Shown piece after piece: positions 31,644 through 41,844 of a DNA stretch of 64,000 bases. Position numbers and translations under genes: made by a program. Source of the DNA: Halovenus aranensis (GTDB taxonomy: Archaea; Halobacteriota; Halobacteria; Halobacteriales; Haloarculaceae); NCBI RefSeq assembly GCF_900100385.1, contig NZ_FNFC01000009.1, positions 1-64,000 of the forward strand, read 5' to 3'. The first letter of the stretch is position 1. Every line of letters begins with the position of its first letter. Below the pieces are notes generated by a model. It ran no database searches. It saw only the letters and a list, made by a program, of their open reading frames with translations, and was not told where the DNA came from.

Positions 31644-34403
31644 TTACTCGCTGAGGTTCGTCCGGTCGATTACCTCGCCCTCGTTGTAGATGAGGAGGAC
31701 GTTGTCTGGTTTCTCCTCGGCTTCGATGGTCATCGAGTCACCTTCTGAGACGGTCCCGTCGCCGTCCCAGTCGGCGAGCCCCTCGGTTGCTGGTGGGGCG
31801 TAGACGCCGAGGCTGTCGGCATCAATTTCGTCGCCGCCGTTGTGCTCGATACTGAGCGCGCCTTCGTCGCTGTCGTAGCTGACGGCGAAGCTCGCATCTG
31901 GAACGACGGTGTACTCTTGGACTTGTGTCGCATCACCGCTAGTCGGCCACTCAATGACGATTGTCGTCCCCGCCTCGAACGAGCCGAGCTCGAGTTCGTC
32001 GCCCTCTTCGAGCGTGTCGTACTCCTCGCCCGGCTGGGTGTCGAGTTCCTCGCCGTCGGCGAGGAAGCGGAACTCGCTGGCGTCGCGGGAGGTGTCCTCG
32101 CGATAGGTCGCGACGAGCGTGCCCTCACGGTTCTCGAAGTTGAACGCGTACCGTGGCTGTGCGCTAAACCGATAGACCGTCGACCATCGCCGGTCGTCCG
32201 TCGTGACGACAACGTTGATACTCGTTTCCGGACCCACGTCTTCCAGAGTTACGCTGTCACCGTTTGACAGCGTTTCGATGTCCGAGAACGGCTTTTCGTC
32301 GTTTTCGTTGTCTGCGTCGCGACTGTAGCGTCGGACTTCGAGGTTCGAGGCATCGGCCGTCTGCTGGCCAGTGTAGGCCAGTTCGACCGTCTCGTTCGAG
32401 GGGTCGTAACTCGCCTGGAACAGGTCACGCCCGGTGACCCGCTGTGTAATCGTCTCCTCGGTCTCGCCGTCGGTCCAGACGACTTTTACCTCTTGGAACG
32501 GCTCGCCGTCCACCGAGAGCGAGTCGCCCTGGCTAACTGTGTCGTACTCGTCGCTGAACTGCGTCTCAGCCGCCTCGTCGTTGAACGTGAGTTTGAGGTT
32601 GCTTGCATCGACCTCCTCGCCGTTCTGGTGTGTGAGCGTGACAGTGCCCTCCTCGTCGTCGTAGGACACGTTCATGTAGACCCGAGGCGTGATGACTATC
32701 TCTTCGATGACAGTCGTCTCGTCGCCAGCGGTCCACTCGACGACGATTTTCGTCCCGTACTCGACATCGGGAAGCGAGATTTCGTCCCCGCGTTCGAGCG
32801 TGTCGTGCTCGTCTGCCGGCTGTGTCTCCATCTCCTCGTCGTCGGCGAGGACCCGGAAGTTCTCGGCGTCTCGGGCGATGTCGTCGTAGTACCGCAGCGT
32901 GAGTCCTTTGTCTCCACGGTTCATCACAGAGATGCGTGGTTCGCGGATGCGGTATCTGACAAGCGTCCTGTCAGGCCCGAATGAGCTTGCCGGTTTCTGT
33001 GGGACATCGAGTCTGAGCTCTACTCTGTCACCGATTCCGGCCTCCTCGACGGTCAACGAGTCGCCGGTCGTGAGCGTGTCGCCCAGCTCTTCGATTGGTG
33101 CCGTGAGCTGTTCGGTTTCGTATCGGTACGTGTTGTCGTCCTCGTCGTTGTCAACACGTCGCCGGACCGTGAGGGCGAGACGGTCCGTTTCGGCGTCCAT
33201 CTCGCCGGTGTAGGTCATTTCGACTGCTTTCGTCGACGGGTCGTACGATTTCTCGAAGGAGTTGCGACCGATGGCCTCGTTGACGTACGCGAAGTACTCG
33301 TTTGCTTCTTCGTCGAACCAGCGGAGGTAGACGACTGCGAGCGGGCCAGTATCGACCGTAAGCGAGTCGCCTTCGGTGAACGTCTCGAACTCGTCGGCTG
33401 GCTGTGTCTCCGCCATCGCACCGTTGACCCAGAGTTCGAGCATCTCTGCCGGAATCGACTCTCCGCTGCGGTGTGTGAGCGTCACGGTTCCCTCGCCATC
33501 AGCCGTCTTTATGCCGACTGACGCATCGGGGGCCGCCTCGCGAGCACGCCGTGGCGGCGCTTCGACAACCGTCTCCACGTAGGCGAAGCCGTCGTCGTAC
33601 TCGGTCTCAAGCTCGACAAGTGTACCCTGTTCGAGTTCCTGGAGAATCTCTTTGACGGCATCGTCGTCGAGGTCGACTCCATCGGCCGCTTCGAGGAGAT
33701 ACGCGTTCTCGAATGTTCCCTGCATTCCGCGAATCTGGGAGGGCGACTCCTCGAATCCGGCGCTGAACGTCTGAATCTGTTCCGAGAGTGATGCCGAGGC
33801 AAACTGGAGATCCGTGATATAGTAGAAGTGCGATTTGTCGCCGAGACGGTCGAACGCCTTGCTGAGCGTCTCAACCCCGTCGACTGCAGAATCAGTTCCA
33901 CCGACCCCGACTTCCTGGGCAGTCTCGGCCGCATCGATGCGCACGTCCGAGTCCTCGGCGCTCGCAAAGGCGAGCATCCCGTCGGTGCTCGCGGTTGCGC
34001 GTCGATCGTCCTCACTGTCACCGATGCGCCACCCACCGATTTCGTCGACCTGTTCTCCCGGCTTCGGTGTGCCGAACGAGCCGAGGATAGCGCCAACGGA
34101 GAGTCCGTCGTCGGTCGTGGCGGTCGCGACGGAGTCGACGTCCGCAATGTCGATTTCCTCGAACTGAGTGAGAATCGCGGCTTCGTAGGTAAGCTCGTCC
34201 CGGCTGGTGGCCTCGACTGTCGTCTCGGTAATGCGGCCGTATTCGGCGTCAAGTTCCGAGGGTGCAGGGACGAGGTCGAGTGCCGTCTCTATCTCGACAA
34301 GTTCCTGCGTTGTTGTCTGTTGTGCCTGTGCTTTCGGTACGCGGCCGCTCAGGAGAACTGCAGCAGCACCTCCAGAGCTAAGGAGTAAGTCTCGTCGTTT
34401 CAT
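31644..34403 (-). CDS. Tat-exported protein with seven tandem beta-type repeats
   Basis: This 919-residue protein has a twin-arginine signal (KRRDLLLSSGGAAAVLLSG, cleaved near AQA at about residue 27). A helical/mixed domain of unknown type spans about 30-290. Then seven repeats of about 85 residues follow, beginning near residues 295, 382, 491, 575, 661, 751 and 836, each with a TQ-DE-DT--GD-SL core. Units 1, 2, 3 match units 4, 5, 6 respectively, giving a 3+3+1 super-repeat. The repeats resemble the beta-domains of haloarchaeal pilins and surface proteins. No membrane anchor is visible. I infer a secreted or S-layer-associated adhesive protein. An SD-like GAGGTC (34408-34413) precedes the ATG. 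Confidence 0.85.
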   Translation of the reverse strand: MKRRDLLLSSGGAAAVLLSGRVPKAQAQQTTTQELVEIETALDLVPAPSELDAEYGRITETTVEATSRDELTYEAAILTQFEEIDIADVDSVATATTDDGLSVGAILGSFGTPKPGEQVDEIGGWRIGDSEDDRRATASTDGMLAFASAEDSDVRIDAAETAQEVGVGGTDSAVDGVETLSKAFDRLGDKSHFYYITDLQFASASLSEQIQTFSAGFEESPSQIRGMQGTFENAYLLEAADGVDLDDDAVKEILQELEQGTLVELETEYDDGFAYVETVVEAPPRRAREAAPDASVGIKTADGEGTVTLTHRSGESIPAEMLELWVNGAMAETQPADEFETFTEGDSLTVDTGPLAVVYLRWFDEEANEYFAYVNEAIGRNSFEKSYDPSTKAVEMTYTGEMDAETDRLALTVRRRVDNDEDDNTYRYETEQLTAPIEELGDTLTTGDSLTVEEAGIGDRVELRLDVPQKPASSFGPDRTLVRYRIREPRISVMNRGDKGLTLRYYDDIARDAENFRVLADDEEMETQPADEHDTLERGDEISLPDVEYGTKIVVEWTAGDETTVIEEIVITPRVYMNVSYDDEEGTVTLTHQNGEEVDASNLKLTFNDEAAETQFSDEYDTVSQGDSLSVDGEPFQEVKVVWTDGETEETITQRVTGRDLFQASYDPSNETVELAYTGQQTADASNLEVRRYSRDADNENDEKPFSDIETLSNGDSVTLEDVGPETSINVVVTTDDRRWSTVYRFSAQPRYAFNFENREGTLVATYREDTSRDASEFRFLADGEELDTQPGEEYDTLEEGDELELGSFEAGTTIVIEWPTSGDATQVQEYTVVPDASFAVSYDSDEGALSIEHNGGDEIDADSLGVYAPPATEGLADWDGDGTVSEGDSMTIEAEEKPDNVLLIYNEGEVIDRTNLSE

Positions 34404-34517: not shown

Positions 34518-35408
34518 ATGGACCACCCGCAGTTCGTCGAACACACGGAACCAGAAGCCGTGTTTTCCCTGCTGTCTGACGACAACCGAATCGCTATTCT
34601 TCGGGCGCTCTGGTACAGTGACGAGCCGTTGACGTTCTCGGAACTGCACGACGCCGTCGACATCACAGATTCAGGGCAGTTCAACTACCACCTCAACAAG
34701 CTCGTCAGCCAGTTCGTCGCGAAAAGCGACGACAGATACACCCTCACCGCTGCCGGCGCGCGAGTAAACGGCGCAATCGATGCCGGCTCGTACACGACCA
34801 GCGGGAGTATGGAGCCAATGGCACTGGAGGCGGCGTGTCCGACCTGTGGCGGCAACCGGACCCTCGGGTACGAGGACGAGGTGGCGCGGGTAGAATGTGA
34901 CTCGTGTGACGTGGCCGCGGAATTTACTGTTCCACCGAGCGCGTTCGTCAACTGTGAGCGCGGCGAAATCCCGACGGTCGCCGGACAGTATCTGCGGACA
35001 ATCGCAGAACGCCTCGCAAACGGGTTCTGCTGGCAGTGTGACGGGCCGGTCGAACAACGTGTGTGTCGGCTCTCGGAGGCCGCAATGTGGGAGGAAAGTG
35101 ACTCGGATGACGGAGGCATAGACAGCGACCTAAGCGACACGCCCGTCGTCGAGTACGAGTGTCTCCAGTGTGGCATGAAGCCGACGGCAGGACTGACGTT
35201 CGCACTCGTCTCTGCGCCAGCGGTGGTCAGCTTCTATCACGACCGTGGTGTCGACATACGGGACCAGTCGTTCTGGCAGTTTGCGACCTTCAGCGACGAA
35301 CAGGTTCGCAGCGACGACCCCTTCCGGGCGAGTGCGACGTTCACCGTCGACGGCGACCAGTTGACCGTCGTTGTCGACGACAACCTCGCCGTCGTCGAGA
35401 CGGAATAG
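34518..35408 (+). CDS. ArsR-like HTH regulator with two zinc-ribbon-like domains (DUF7351-like)
   Basis: This 296-residue protein starts with a winged helix (residues 15-80: LLSDDNRIAILRALW, SGQFNYHLNKLV). Cysteine pairs follow: CPTCGG and CDSC (about 105-130), CWQC (about 175), and CLQCG (about 220). Each could bind zinc. The C-terminus is beta-rich. A paralogue with the same order lies at 48854-49738 on the other strand. It divergently faces the seven-repeat protein gene and may regulate it. The family is recalled as DUF7351. Confidence 0.85.
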   Translation: MDHPQFVEHTEPEAVFSLLSDDNRIAILRALWYSDEPLTFSELHDAVDITDSGQFNYHLNKLVSQFVAKSDDRYTLTAAGARVNGAIDAGSYTTSGSMEPMALEAACPTCGGNRTLGYEDEVARVECDSCDVAAEFTVPPSAFVNCERGEIPTVAGQYLRTIAERLANGFCWQCDGPVEQRVCRLSEAAMWEESDSDDGGIDSDLSDTPVVEYECLQCGMKPTAGLTFALVSAPAVVSFYHDRGVDIRDQSFWQFATFSDEQVRSDDPFRASATFTVDGDQLTVVVDDNLAVVETE

Positions 35409-38709: not shown

Positions 38710-41700
38710 GTGGACAAATATAGCTATTCGCCGAGTAGACGGGAGTTCATCGCCGGAACGGTCGGGGTCGGTGCAGCGGGGCTGGGGCTGGCGTCGACTG
38801 CTGGCAACGCGCGGGCGGAAAGCATGGACACTCTGGACACCTCTGGCACAGTCAGGGCGGTCGTCCGGTTCGACCCTGCAGAGGGGACTGGGAAGGCGAC
38901 ACTGCAACAGCACGCACGCATCACCCAGCGTGCCTTCGAGCAGTTCGCGGCCGGACGGGCGGACATCAGCATCGAGCGTCGGTTCTGGGCCGCAAACGCC
39001 GCCTCGGTGTCCGTCGACCTCGGGAGCGTCGGTCGGGAGACGATTCTTGGTGTCGATGGCGTGACCGAGGTGCATCCGAACTACGCCGGGCGGGCAGACA
39101 GTGCTGTCGAAGAAACGTCAACGAAAGCGTCAGCCGAAACCAGTGACACCGCCACACAGGAGACAGGCGTTACGTATCCTCTCGCGGAGATGAATGTCCC
39201 GCAGGCGTGGGAGGTACACGACACTCGTGGCGAGGGCGTCGACGTGGCGGTCATCGACACGGGCATCGACACTACCGGCCACGAGGGTCTTGCCGCCTCG
39301 CTGGAGCGAGGTGGCTGGGCCGAGTTCGACGAGAACGGCAATCGGCTCGACACAGAGCCAAACGAGGGGTCAGACGTGCTCCGCGGCCACGGCACAGCCG
39401 TCAGCGGCGTCATCGCAGGCGGGACAGACGATGAGGGTGACAGCTACGGCATCGCACCGGGGGTGAACCTCTACGTCGCGACCAGCGTCTCTAAACCACC
39501 AGAGGGCGTTCGGCTGCTCTCCGTAGTCGCGGGCATCGAGTGGGCCATCGAACAGGAAGTAGACGTCCTGTCGATGAGTCTGGGCCATCCGCAGTACAGT
39601 CACGCGTTCGTCGAACCAGTCCAGAATGCAATCGAGAGCGGTATTCTCGTCGTCGGAAGCACCGGAAACGCCGGACGGTACACGGGCGTATCACCATCGA
39701 ACATTCCGGGCGTCCTCGCGGCCGGTGGCATCAACGACGACCGGCAGCCGTACGACGATGGAAGCGGTGAGCAGGTCGATACCGAACGATACTGGGGAGA
39801 TGACGCCCCCGACTCGTGGCCCCAGACGTACACTGTTCCGGACGTGACTGCGCCGGCTGTCGACGTCCCGTCGGCCTACCTCGACGGTGAGTATACCGCC
39901 GATAGAAGCGGGACGAGTTACGCAGCGCCGTGTGTCGCCGGCGTCGCTGCCCTCGCTCTCGCCGCGACCGACGCCGACAGCGAGGCGGTCCGAAACGCAA
40001 TCATCGAGACGGCGTGCCACCCGGCTACCGAGAACGAGTTCGACCTCGACCCGGGACACGACGACCGGTACGGTCAGGGCATTGTCTCCGCGCTCGCAAC
40101 AATCAGCCATCTCCGGGCCAGCGAGACCGTTTCCGGGACAGTCACTGACGAATCCGGCACTCCACTCGACGGCGTGACCGTCGTCTCGGAGGTCGGTCTG
40201 CAGACCGAGACCGACGACCAGGGAACGTACGAACTAACGCTTCCACCAGTTACCCAGCCCGTCGGCGCGACCGGTCTCGGGTTCGACACGACCGGCGGGA
40301 GAATCGACCCTGCCAGCACCGACACACAGTCGTTCGAACTCGCCCGGACGGACGGCCCCGAGGTCGAGATGACCGGCCGGATGGCGACGCGAATCGACCC
40401 CGGCAACGCGGCAACGGCAACGTTCGACACCGCGAACGTCGAAGCGGTCACGGTCGTACCGGAGGTCAACGGACCGGCTGACCCGGAGGCGCTGGACCTC
40501 ACGGTCAACGACACGGCAGTGGCGTTCGGAGAACCGGTCGCTATCGACCCAGACCGCACGCAGGTTACGGTTGGCATAGCTGTCCCCGAGTCGGCCCTGA
40601 TTGCGCAGTTCCGGGCGAGTTACGAGTTCACGGGCGGCGAGGAGTCAGTCGAGGGACGCGGTCATCTGGTCTACGCCCATCCCGACCCATTCGTTATCTC
40701 ACCCTCGGACCCACCGAGCCTGCAAACACCAATCGACCTGATGGCACCCCGGACGACGCTCGAACTGACAGACGGCCAAGCGGCCGCGGTTGCGAGCGGA
40801 GACGACGACGCGGGAGTCGTCATCGACAAACCGCTAACAGTACGGGCCACCGACGGGGCGACACCAGAGATTCAGTTCTCGAACGAAGGGGCCGACGAGC
40901 CGGCGGCCGTGCTCGTCTTGGCGAACGACGTGACGATATCGGGACTCGATGTCGACGGTTCGGGTGCCGAGACGGGAGTCCAGGTCGGCCTCGGTATCAG
41001 AGAGACATTTAGGGACGGGAAACCGTGGCCCTCGGGCGTGACAGTTCGTGACCTCTCTGTTGCCGGGGCGACGACAGCGATTCGCTCGTATCAGTCGCCA
41101 GCGCTACGAATTACGAACAACGAGCTGACCGCCGACGTGACGGGCATCACCGTCGCAGGCCGGGCGAAGGTCACCGTTCGAGCGAACGACGTGACCGATG
41201 TCGAGACAGGTATCGAGGCAGTCGGCCAGGTCGATGCTATCGAGGCAAACAGTCTCTCGGACATCGGCGGAACGGGCATCTCGGTCGGGACGCCACGCTT
41301 CTTGAGTCGTCACTGGGGGCAGGAAATCGGCCCAGTTCGGTCGAACACTGTCACCGGCGCGACTCGCGGGATTGCCATCGAAGGGGTGACGACCCGTCCG
41401 GTCGAGGAGAACGACCTGTCCGACATCGGCGAGACGGCACTCGTCGTCAACGGCGGTATACTTGCCCCGCTCCGGTCTAACAGCATTGAGAACGCTCAGC
41501 GAGGGATTACGATTGCCGACGACGCGGACGTAGCGACGGTGAGTGACAACGAGTTCACCAACGTCGAAGAGCCCGGCGACGGTGTCGAGGCAGACGACGC
41601 CCCCGGGGACGACCAGAGCGACACTACGCCCGAGCCGACGGAAACACCAGACCAGCGCAACACAGACGAGCCCACGCCCGAGCCGACTGTCTCCCCGACC

Positions 41701-41844
41701 GAAACGGAAGCTGGACCGGCCGCGACAGAGACCGCCGAGACAGACGGCTCCGGTTCAGAGTTCGGTATCGGGAGCGCAGTCGCCGGTCTCGGGACCGTCG
41801 GCTACCTGTTGAAACGGCGGTGGGCAGACGACGAGACGGAGTAG
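38710..41844 (+). CDS. Tat-exported subtilisin-like (S8) protease with beta-helix and PGF-CTERM-like tail
   Basis: This 1044-residue protein has a twin-arginine signal (SRREFIAGTVGVGAAGLGLA). The S8 catalytic triad is visible: Asp183 in VAVIDTGID, His227 in RGHGTAVSGV, and Ser403 in SGTSYAAPCVAG. A carboxypeptidase-regulatory-like beta-sandwich (about 475-550) follows, then a region to about 690 and parallel beta-helix repeats (about 740-960) like polysaccharide-binding or degrading proteins. A Thr/Pro/Glu spacer (about 970-1020) leads to GIGSAVAGLGTVGYLLKRR, a PGF-CTERM-like anchor. It is probably attached to the cell surface by archaeosortase. It starts at GTG 38710. Confidence 0.9.
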   Translation: MDKYSYSPSRREFIAGTVGVGAAGLGLASTAGNARAESMDTLDTSGTVRAVVRFDPAEGTGKATLQQHARITQRAFEQFAAGRADISIERRFWAANAASVSVDLGSVGRETILGVDGVTEVHPNYAGRADSAVEETSTKASAETSDTATQETGVTYPLAEMNVPQAWEVHDTRGEGVDVAVIDTGIDTTGHEGLAASLERGGWAEFDENGNRLDTEPNEGSDVLRGHGTAVSGVIAGGTDDEGDSYGIAPGVNLYVATSVSKPPEGVRLLSVVAGIEWAIEQEVDVLSMSLGHPQYSHAFVEPVQNAIESGILVVGSTGNAGRYTGVSPSNIPGVLAAGGINDDRQPYDDGSGEQVDTERYWGDDAPDSWPQTYTVPDVTAPAVDVPSAYLDGEYTADRSGTSYAAPCVAGVAALALAATDADSEAVRNAIIETACHPATENEFDLDPGHDDRYGQGIVSALATISHLRASETVSGTVTDESGTPLDGVTVVSEVGLQTETDDQGTYELTLPPVTQPVGATGLGFDTTGGRIDPASTDTQSFELARTDGPEVEMTGRMATRIDPGNAATATFDTANVEAVTVVPEVNGPADPEALDLTVNDTAVAFGEPVAIDPDRTQVTVGIAVPESALIAQFRASYEFTGGEESVEGRGHLVYAHPDPFVISPSDPPSLQTPIDLMAPRTTLELTDGQAAAVASGDDDAGVVIDKPLTVRATDGATPEIQFSNEGADEPAAVLVLANDVTISGLDVDGSGAETGVQVGLGIRETFRDGKPWPSGVTVRDLSVAGATTAIRSYQSPALRITNNELTADVTGITVAGRAKVTVRANDVTDVETGIEAVGQVDAIEANSLSDIGGTGISVGTPRFLSRHWGQEIGPVRSNTVTGATRGIAIEGVTTRPVEENDLSDIGETALVVNGGILAPLRSNSIENAQRGITIADDADVATVSDNEFTNVEEPGDGVEADDAPGDDQSDTTPEPTETPDQRNTDEPTPEPTVSPTETEAGPAATETAETDGSGSEFGIGSAVAGLGTVGYLLKRRWADDETE

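Follow-up and report, generated by a model that had tools for sequence, protein, structure and literature searches.

The window, a 64,000-nucleotide stretch of the Halovenus aranensis genome, carries on its minus strand an open reading frame of 919 residues that is a real gene, because a full-length, 67% identical copy is present in Halovenus salina. This copy and that of Halovenus rubra (45%), both from the genus of the window, are the nearest full-length relatives. The gene and its parts are listed here with the evidence for each.

31644..34403, minus strand: open reading frame, 919 aa
34323..34403, minus strand: predicted Tat signal peptide, aa 1-27, MKRRDLLLSSGGAAAVLLSGRVPKAQA, without a lipobox (RR kept in aligned relatives; sub-threshold Pfam TAT_signal match)
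33528..34322, minus strand: N-terminal (N) domain, aa 28-292, predicted alpha/beta, common to lipobox relatives with 1, 4 or 6 units
33264..33527, minus strand: unit 1, type A1, aa 293-380 (unit comparison, profiles, unit tree; Pilin_N match at 33417-33548)
32937..33263, minus strand: unit 2, type B1, aa 381-489, in which a longer loop is inserted (unit comparison, alignment, profiles)
32685..32936, minus strand: unit 3, type C1, aa 490-573 (unit comparison, profiles; 71% DNA repeat with unit 6)
32427..32684, minus strand: unit 4, type A2, aa 574-659 (unit comparison, profiles, unit tree)
32154..32426, minus strand: unit 5, type B2, aa 660-750 (unit comparison, profiles, unit tree)
31899..32153, minus strand: unit 6, type C2, aa 751-835 (unit comparison, profiles; DNA repeat with unit 3)
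31647..31898, minus strand: unit 7, type T, aa 836-919, the C-terminal end of the protein (Pilin_N, PDB 8fj5, T clade)

The gene neighbourhood is conserved in Halovenus salina only; a conserved neighbourhood elsewhere was considered and rejected, as just near neighbours share flanking genes, without a functional link. A divergent HTH regulator (DUF7347 + DUF7351; 34518-35408, plus strand) starts 114 bp from the gene, and the two genes stay together in Halovenus salina but not in the other relatives. Further along, at 38710-41844 on the plus strand, lies a 1044-aa subtilase (S8) with carboxypeptidase-regulatory-like and right-handed beta-helix/NosD domains.

The earlier note had described the product as Tat-exported and lacking a membrane anchor, with no clear family for its first 290 residues. 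On the first of these claims, relatives with an intact N-terminus have the RR followed by a hydrophobic stretch; use of the Tat route is predicted from this conserved motif, the match to Pfam TAT_signal being sub-threshold only (E 0.09-0.4, best 0.088). The absence of an anchor is borne out: outside the signal the chain has no strongly hydrophobic 19-mer (maximum Kyte-Doolittle value 0.88), and not one of its 919 residues is a cysteine, so that the lipobox cysteine of haloarchaeal Tat lipoproteins is not found and a lipid anchor is excluded. The calculated pI is 4.05. Likewise, the N domain has no credible match in Pfam, NCBIfam or PDB, and its model is weak (pLDDT 61.5; best PDB match by Foldseek at E 0.03), with no recognisable fold. 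It is nevertheless shared within the family: its profile aligns to the N domain of the lipobox group with four or six units (hhalign probability 97.4, E 9e-12) and, in a weaker link, to L013/L017 (62.6%, E 7e-5), while the hhalign link to L014/L015 covers the signal only.

Downstream of the N domain, the seven repeats of about 85 residues proposed earlier were recovered as seven units of 84-109 aa each. With the tail cut at the repeat starts and every pair of units scored as z against shuffled sequences, the three highest-scoring pairs within units 1-6, out of 15, are exactly 1/4 (36/86 identical, 42%, z 29.4), 2/5 (30/91, z 14.2) and 3/6 (37/83, z 31.7), and the remaining pairs among all seven units range from z 0.9 to 13.5. 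The comparison on which the earlier note had staked its order of types, units 1 and 4 against units 1 and 2, thus came out in its favour (42% against 29% identity, the latter from 24/84 positions; z 29.4 against 4.7). At the DNA level, units 3 and 6 form a 187-nt direct repeat, 71% identical, with a spacing of 786 nt that corresponds to one three-unit block.

The order A, B, C, A, B, C, A claimed for the units stands for the first six; the final A does not. Type profiles for A, B, C and T were built from five full-length proteins (that of the window and L002-L005) and run on all relatives. In proteins that took no part in profile building, from Halorubrum and others, the units read A-B-C-A-B-C-T, the last one scoring 48-106 bits on T and 16-42 bits on A. 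Moreover, in a tree of 96 units, which with 87 columns and many open forks is used for broad groupings only, the T units of seven-unit proteins join the final unit of relatives with four and six units (SH-aLRT 94) and sit in the part that holds genuine pilin domains (82), separate from the A units (98). Profile scores and unit tree together indicate two A-B-C blocks and a T, with no third A, and the architecture of the protein is read from its sequence as N-[A-B-C]x2-T. The protein has the combination by which the ABC-T family is defined here, namely an N domain, one or more A-B-C blocks and a terminal T. Two further ideas about single units were rejected. One was an origin of A2 by unequal crossing-over between A and T: A2 is equidistant from T and A1 in the first strand only, and A1 is equally near T in that strand, so there is no A/T hybrid signal in A2. 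The other was an EF-hand-like loop seen in T (DWDGDGTVSEGD); relatives do not retain it, and it is put down to chance.

The unit identities, the type profiles and the existence of one-block relatives all support the proposed duplication of a three-domain block. Its history was read from a tree of 42 ABC blocks (269 columns) in proteins from several genera and families, in which the 15 rows of block 1 cluster with L108 in one clade (100/100), and the 15 rows of block 2 make up a second (99/97). That each block is a single clade shows that there was one duplication, before the lineages split, with copies that have not been homogenised since; the event is single and old. Single-block lipobox proteins branch outside blocks 1 and 2 (91/82), as forms older than the duplication would, and such an origin is favoured, although neither placement is rejected when they are constrained to block 1 or to block 2 (p-AU 0.32 and 0.48). 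In L108 (G386) the one block present falls inside the block-1 clade, and a constraint to block 2 is rejected (p-AU 0.015), so this protein lost a block. The locus (G386:C1:903300-909200, minus strand) is of the seven-unit type, cut to A1-B1-C1-T; past T, its C-terminal end looks unrelated, perhaps owing to a frameshift. Separately, the C unit alone is triplicated in two lineages, L122 (G318) and L007-L010, which lie apart in the block tree, so that the triplications are probably independent.

The search for relatives with different unit counts, suggested by the earlier note, yielded proteins with 1, 4, 6 and 7 units. The ABC-block profile hits 82 of the 394 genomes of haloarchaea, spread over 25 genera, and in a sample of the phylum the family occurs in 12 of 295 genomes, all from the window's own order; on genome contigs, a single-protein scan found none and an alignment scan found 16 relatives. 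The N-ABC-ABC-T form is represented by 34 non-identical proteins, and 34/34 typed two-block proteins read ABCABCT. N-A-B-C-T is found in L006 and L104-L107, N-A-B-C-C-C-T in L007-L010 and in the more distant six-unit L122, and N-T in open reading frames of 420-560 aa with one unit (L146-L155, L157), which were recovered by a combined N-domain profile and whose unit is typed best as T in most cases and as A in one. Other unit counts were not seen among the intact core-family proteins at the fetched loci. L011 (G004), a relative in the six-unit group, is split into two reading frames after the B unit, reflecting a broken gene or an assembly error. A lipobox is present in L006, L007-L008, L104-L107, L111 and L118; it occurs in all five intact N-ABC-T proteins on the separate branch of single-block forms, in most N-T proteins, in some N-ABCCC-T proteins and in only 2 two-block proteins. 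In annotated plasmid records the relatives are labelled "hypothetical protein", and literature searches found no paper on the ABC-T family.

The suspected likeness of the repeats to pilin or surface beta-domains is borne out by sequence comparison. Pfam Pilin_N (PF07790) matches the protein at E 8.5e-15, best over aa 830-868 against profile positions 33-72, and the five-sequence profile retrieves one PDB entry, the pilin 8fj5, whose residues 48-114 align to T (836-899; E 1.7e-8). By these comparisons T is, of the seven units, the one closest to the heads of true pilins. An archaeal pilin is made up of a helix at the N-terminus and an Ig-like beta domain at the C-terminus (PMC11178852), and the Pilin_N match in the ABC-T protein is restricted to the globular part, covering profile positions 32-76 only and never 1-31. 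Specifically, 14 Pilin_N places were found in the genome; 11 of them, over the cut-off, begin at profile position 1-4, as in pilin-type proteins, and the two within the gene begin at position 32. Two ordinary pilin-type genes lie in tandem on the same contig, about 53 kb past the end of the window (G000:C7:117483-119000). AlphaFold2, run with 14 sequences, predicts beta-rich units with pLDDT mostly 80-93 (mean of 74.2 for the whole chain), and Foldseek relates the model to tandem Ig/FnIII arrays (E about 1e-7).

Three other readings of the protein were weighed against this evidence. The homology of T to pilin heads, in a genome with those eleven other Pilin_N places, could suggest a large minor pilin or a tip adhesin whose heads co-assemble with type IV pili. 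Yet the chain has neither a class III signal nor an N-terminal assembly helix, in keeping with the unmatched first 31 profile positions, it starts with a predicted twin-arginine signal, some relatives have a lipobox, and the gene is not adjacent to pilus genes. Because the assembly helix is absent and a predicted twin-arginine signal stands in its place, the protein is not a pilin, and a role as a pilus component of this kind is very unlikely. The persistence of the N domain across unit counts, which makes it probably the working part, would agree with an enzyme or ligand-binding protein in which this domain is active and the beta domains serve as substrate-binding or cell-wall-docking modules; as a matter of general knowledge, lipoprotein kin would also be compatible with a binding protein held at the surface. 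However, no enzyme, solute-binding or carbohydrate-binding family is matched, and there are few strictly conserved residues and no catalytic-looking set, leaving this reading unlikely, though worth keeping in mind.

That the units are seven interchangeable adhesin repeats, kept similar by recombination and with no role specific to each slot, is scarcely credible. Similar domains do stand in tandem arrays, C has been amplified alone in two other lineages and a whole block has been lost in L108, but blocks 1 and 2 fall into distinct clades that span many genera, every bootstrap tree recovers block 2 as a single clade, so that homogenisation is excluded, and the number of units is constant at seven in every two-block protein seen.

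The explanation that we favour, and consider reasonably probable, is that of an exported, un-anchored surface or matrix protein with an N domain and a rod of seven Ig-like domains resembling pilin heads. The Tat signal would export the protein already folded, comprising a family-specific alpha/beta N domain and, behind it, a rod built of beta-sandwich domains that are homologues of the pilin head. The rod may have grown from one terminal, pilin-type T, to which an A-B-C block was added and then duplicated once as a whole. Since a lipobox is common in the relatives with 1, 4 or 6 units, the ancestor was probably a stalk tethered to the membrane; lipobox forms would have the N domain next to the membrane and T at the far end, and in the lineage of the window, without a lipid anchor, the protein would be released or held by other contacts (S-layer or matrix). 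The N domain and the terminal T are invariant, with 0, 3, 5 or 6 units between them, and this stepwise number between constant ends is what is expected of a spacer that sets the distance from N to the tip. An Ig-like domain is roughly 3.5-4 nm long, and seven units would thus span about 25 nm. The slot-wise conservation suggests specific contacts between neighbouring units and argues against interchangeable beads. The rod shape and a role in which the units act as a spacer or an adhesive stalk that carries the N domain are proposals. The pTM of the full model (0.43), the weak model of the N domain, the p-AU values of the single-block constraints and a gene neighbourhood kept only in Halovenus salina count against this explanation.

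In a wider sense, it is conceivable, if somewhat short of an even chance, that these proteins constitute an undescribed haloarchaeal family in which Tat-exported pilin heads, as a stalk of 1, 4, 6 or 7 units, carry an N domain through the S-layer or past it, in forms that have a lipid anchor and in forms that lack one. In a bolder form of this proposal, the terminal T may dock onto type IV pili, tying them to the cell surface. The system offers a clean case of modular surface-protein growth, with one block duplication that has stayed at seven units across several families of haloarchaea, and with living one-, four- and six-unit relatives available for comparison with the seven-unit protein. 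It also presents the archaeal pilin head domain at work outside pilins, and for annotation it implies that a Pilin_N match alone does not define a pilin.

Compared with known systems, the protein is a variant of tandem-domain surface proteins. Tandem Ig/FnIII rods, such as the fibronectin type III fragments 6mfa and 1fnf, are likewise strings of small beta-sandwich domains; TM-scores are low (0.1-0.3), so the likeness is one of layout within a common fold class, and sequence kinship is not claimed. The predicted twin-arginine signal resembles that of haloarchaeal Tat lipoproteins (Storf et al. 2010, PMC2945643), and, like them, relatives with 1, 4, 6 and (twice) 7 units carry a lipobox, whereas the protein of the window, without any cysteine, has no lipid anchor. 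Lastly, archaeal type IV pilins (PF07790, PDB 8fj5) have in common with it the Ig-like beta head domain, above all in unit T; unlike them, it dispenses with the assembly helix and the class III (prepilin peptidase) signal, and instead presents seven heads per chain behind a predicted twin-arginine signal and an extra N-terminal domain of about 260 residues.
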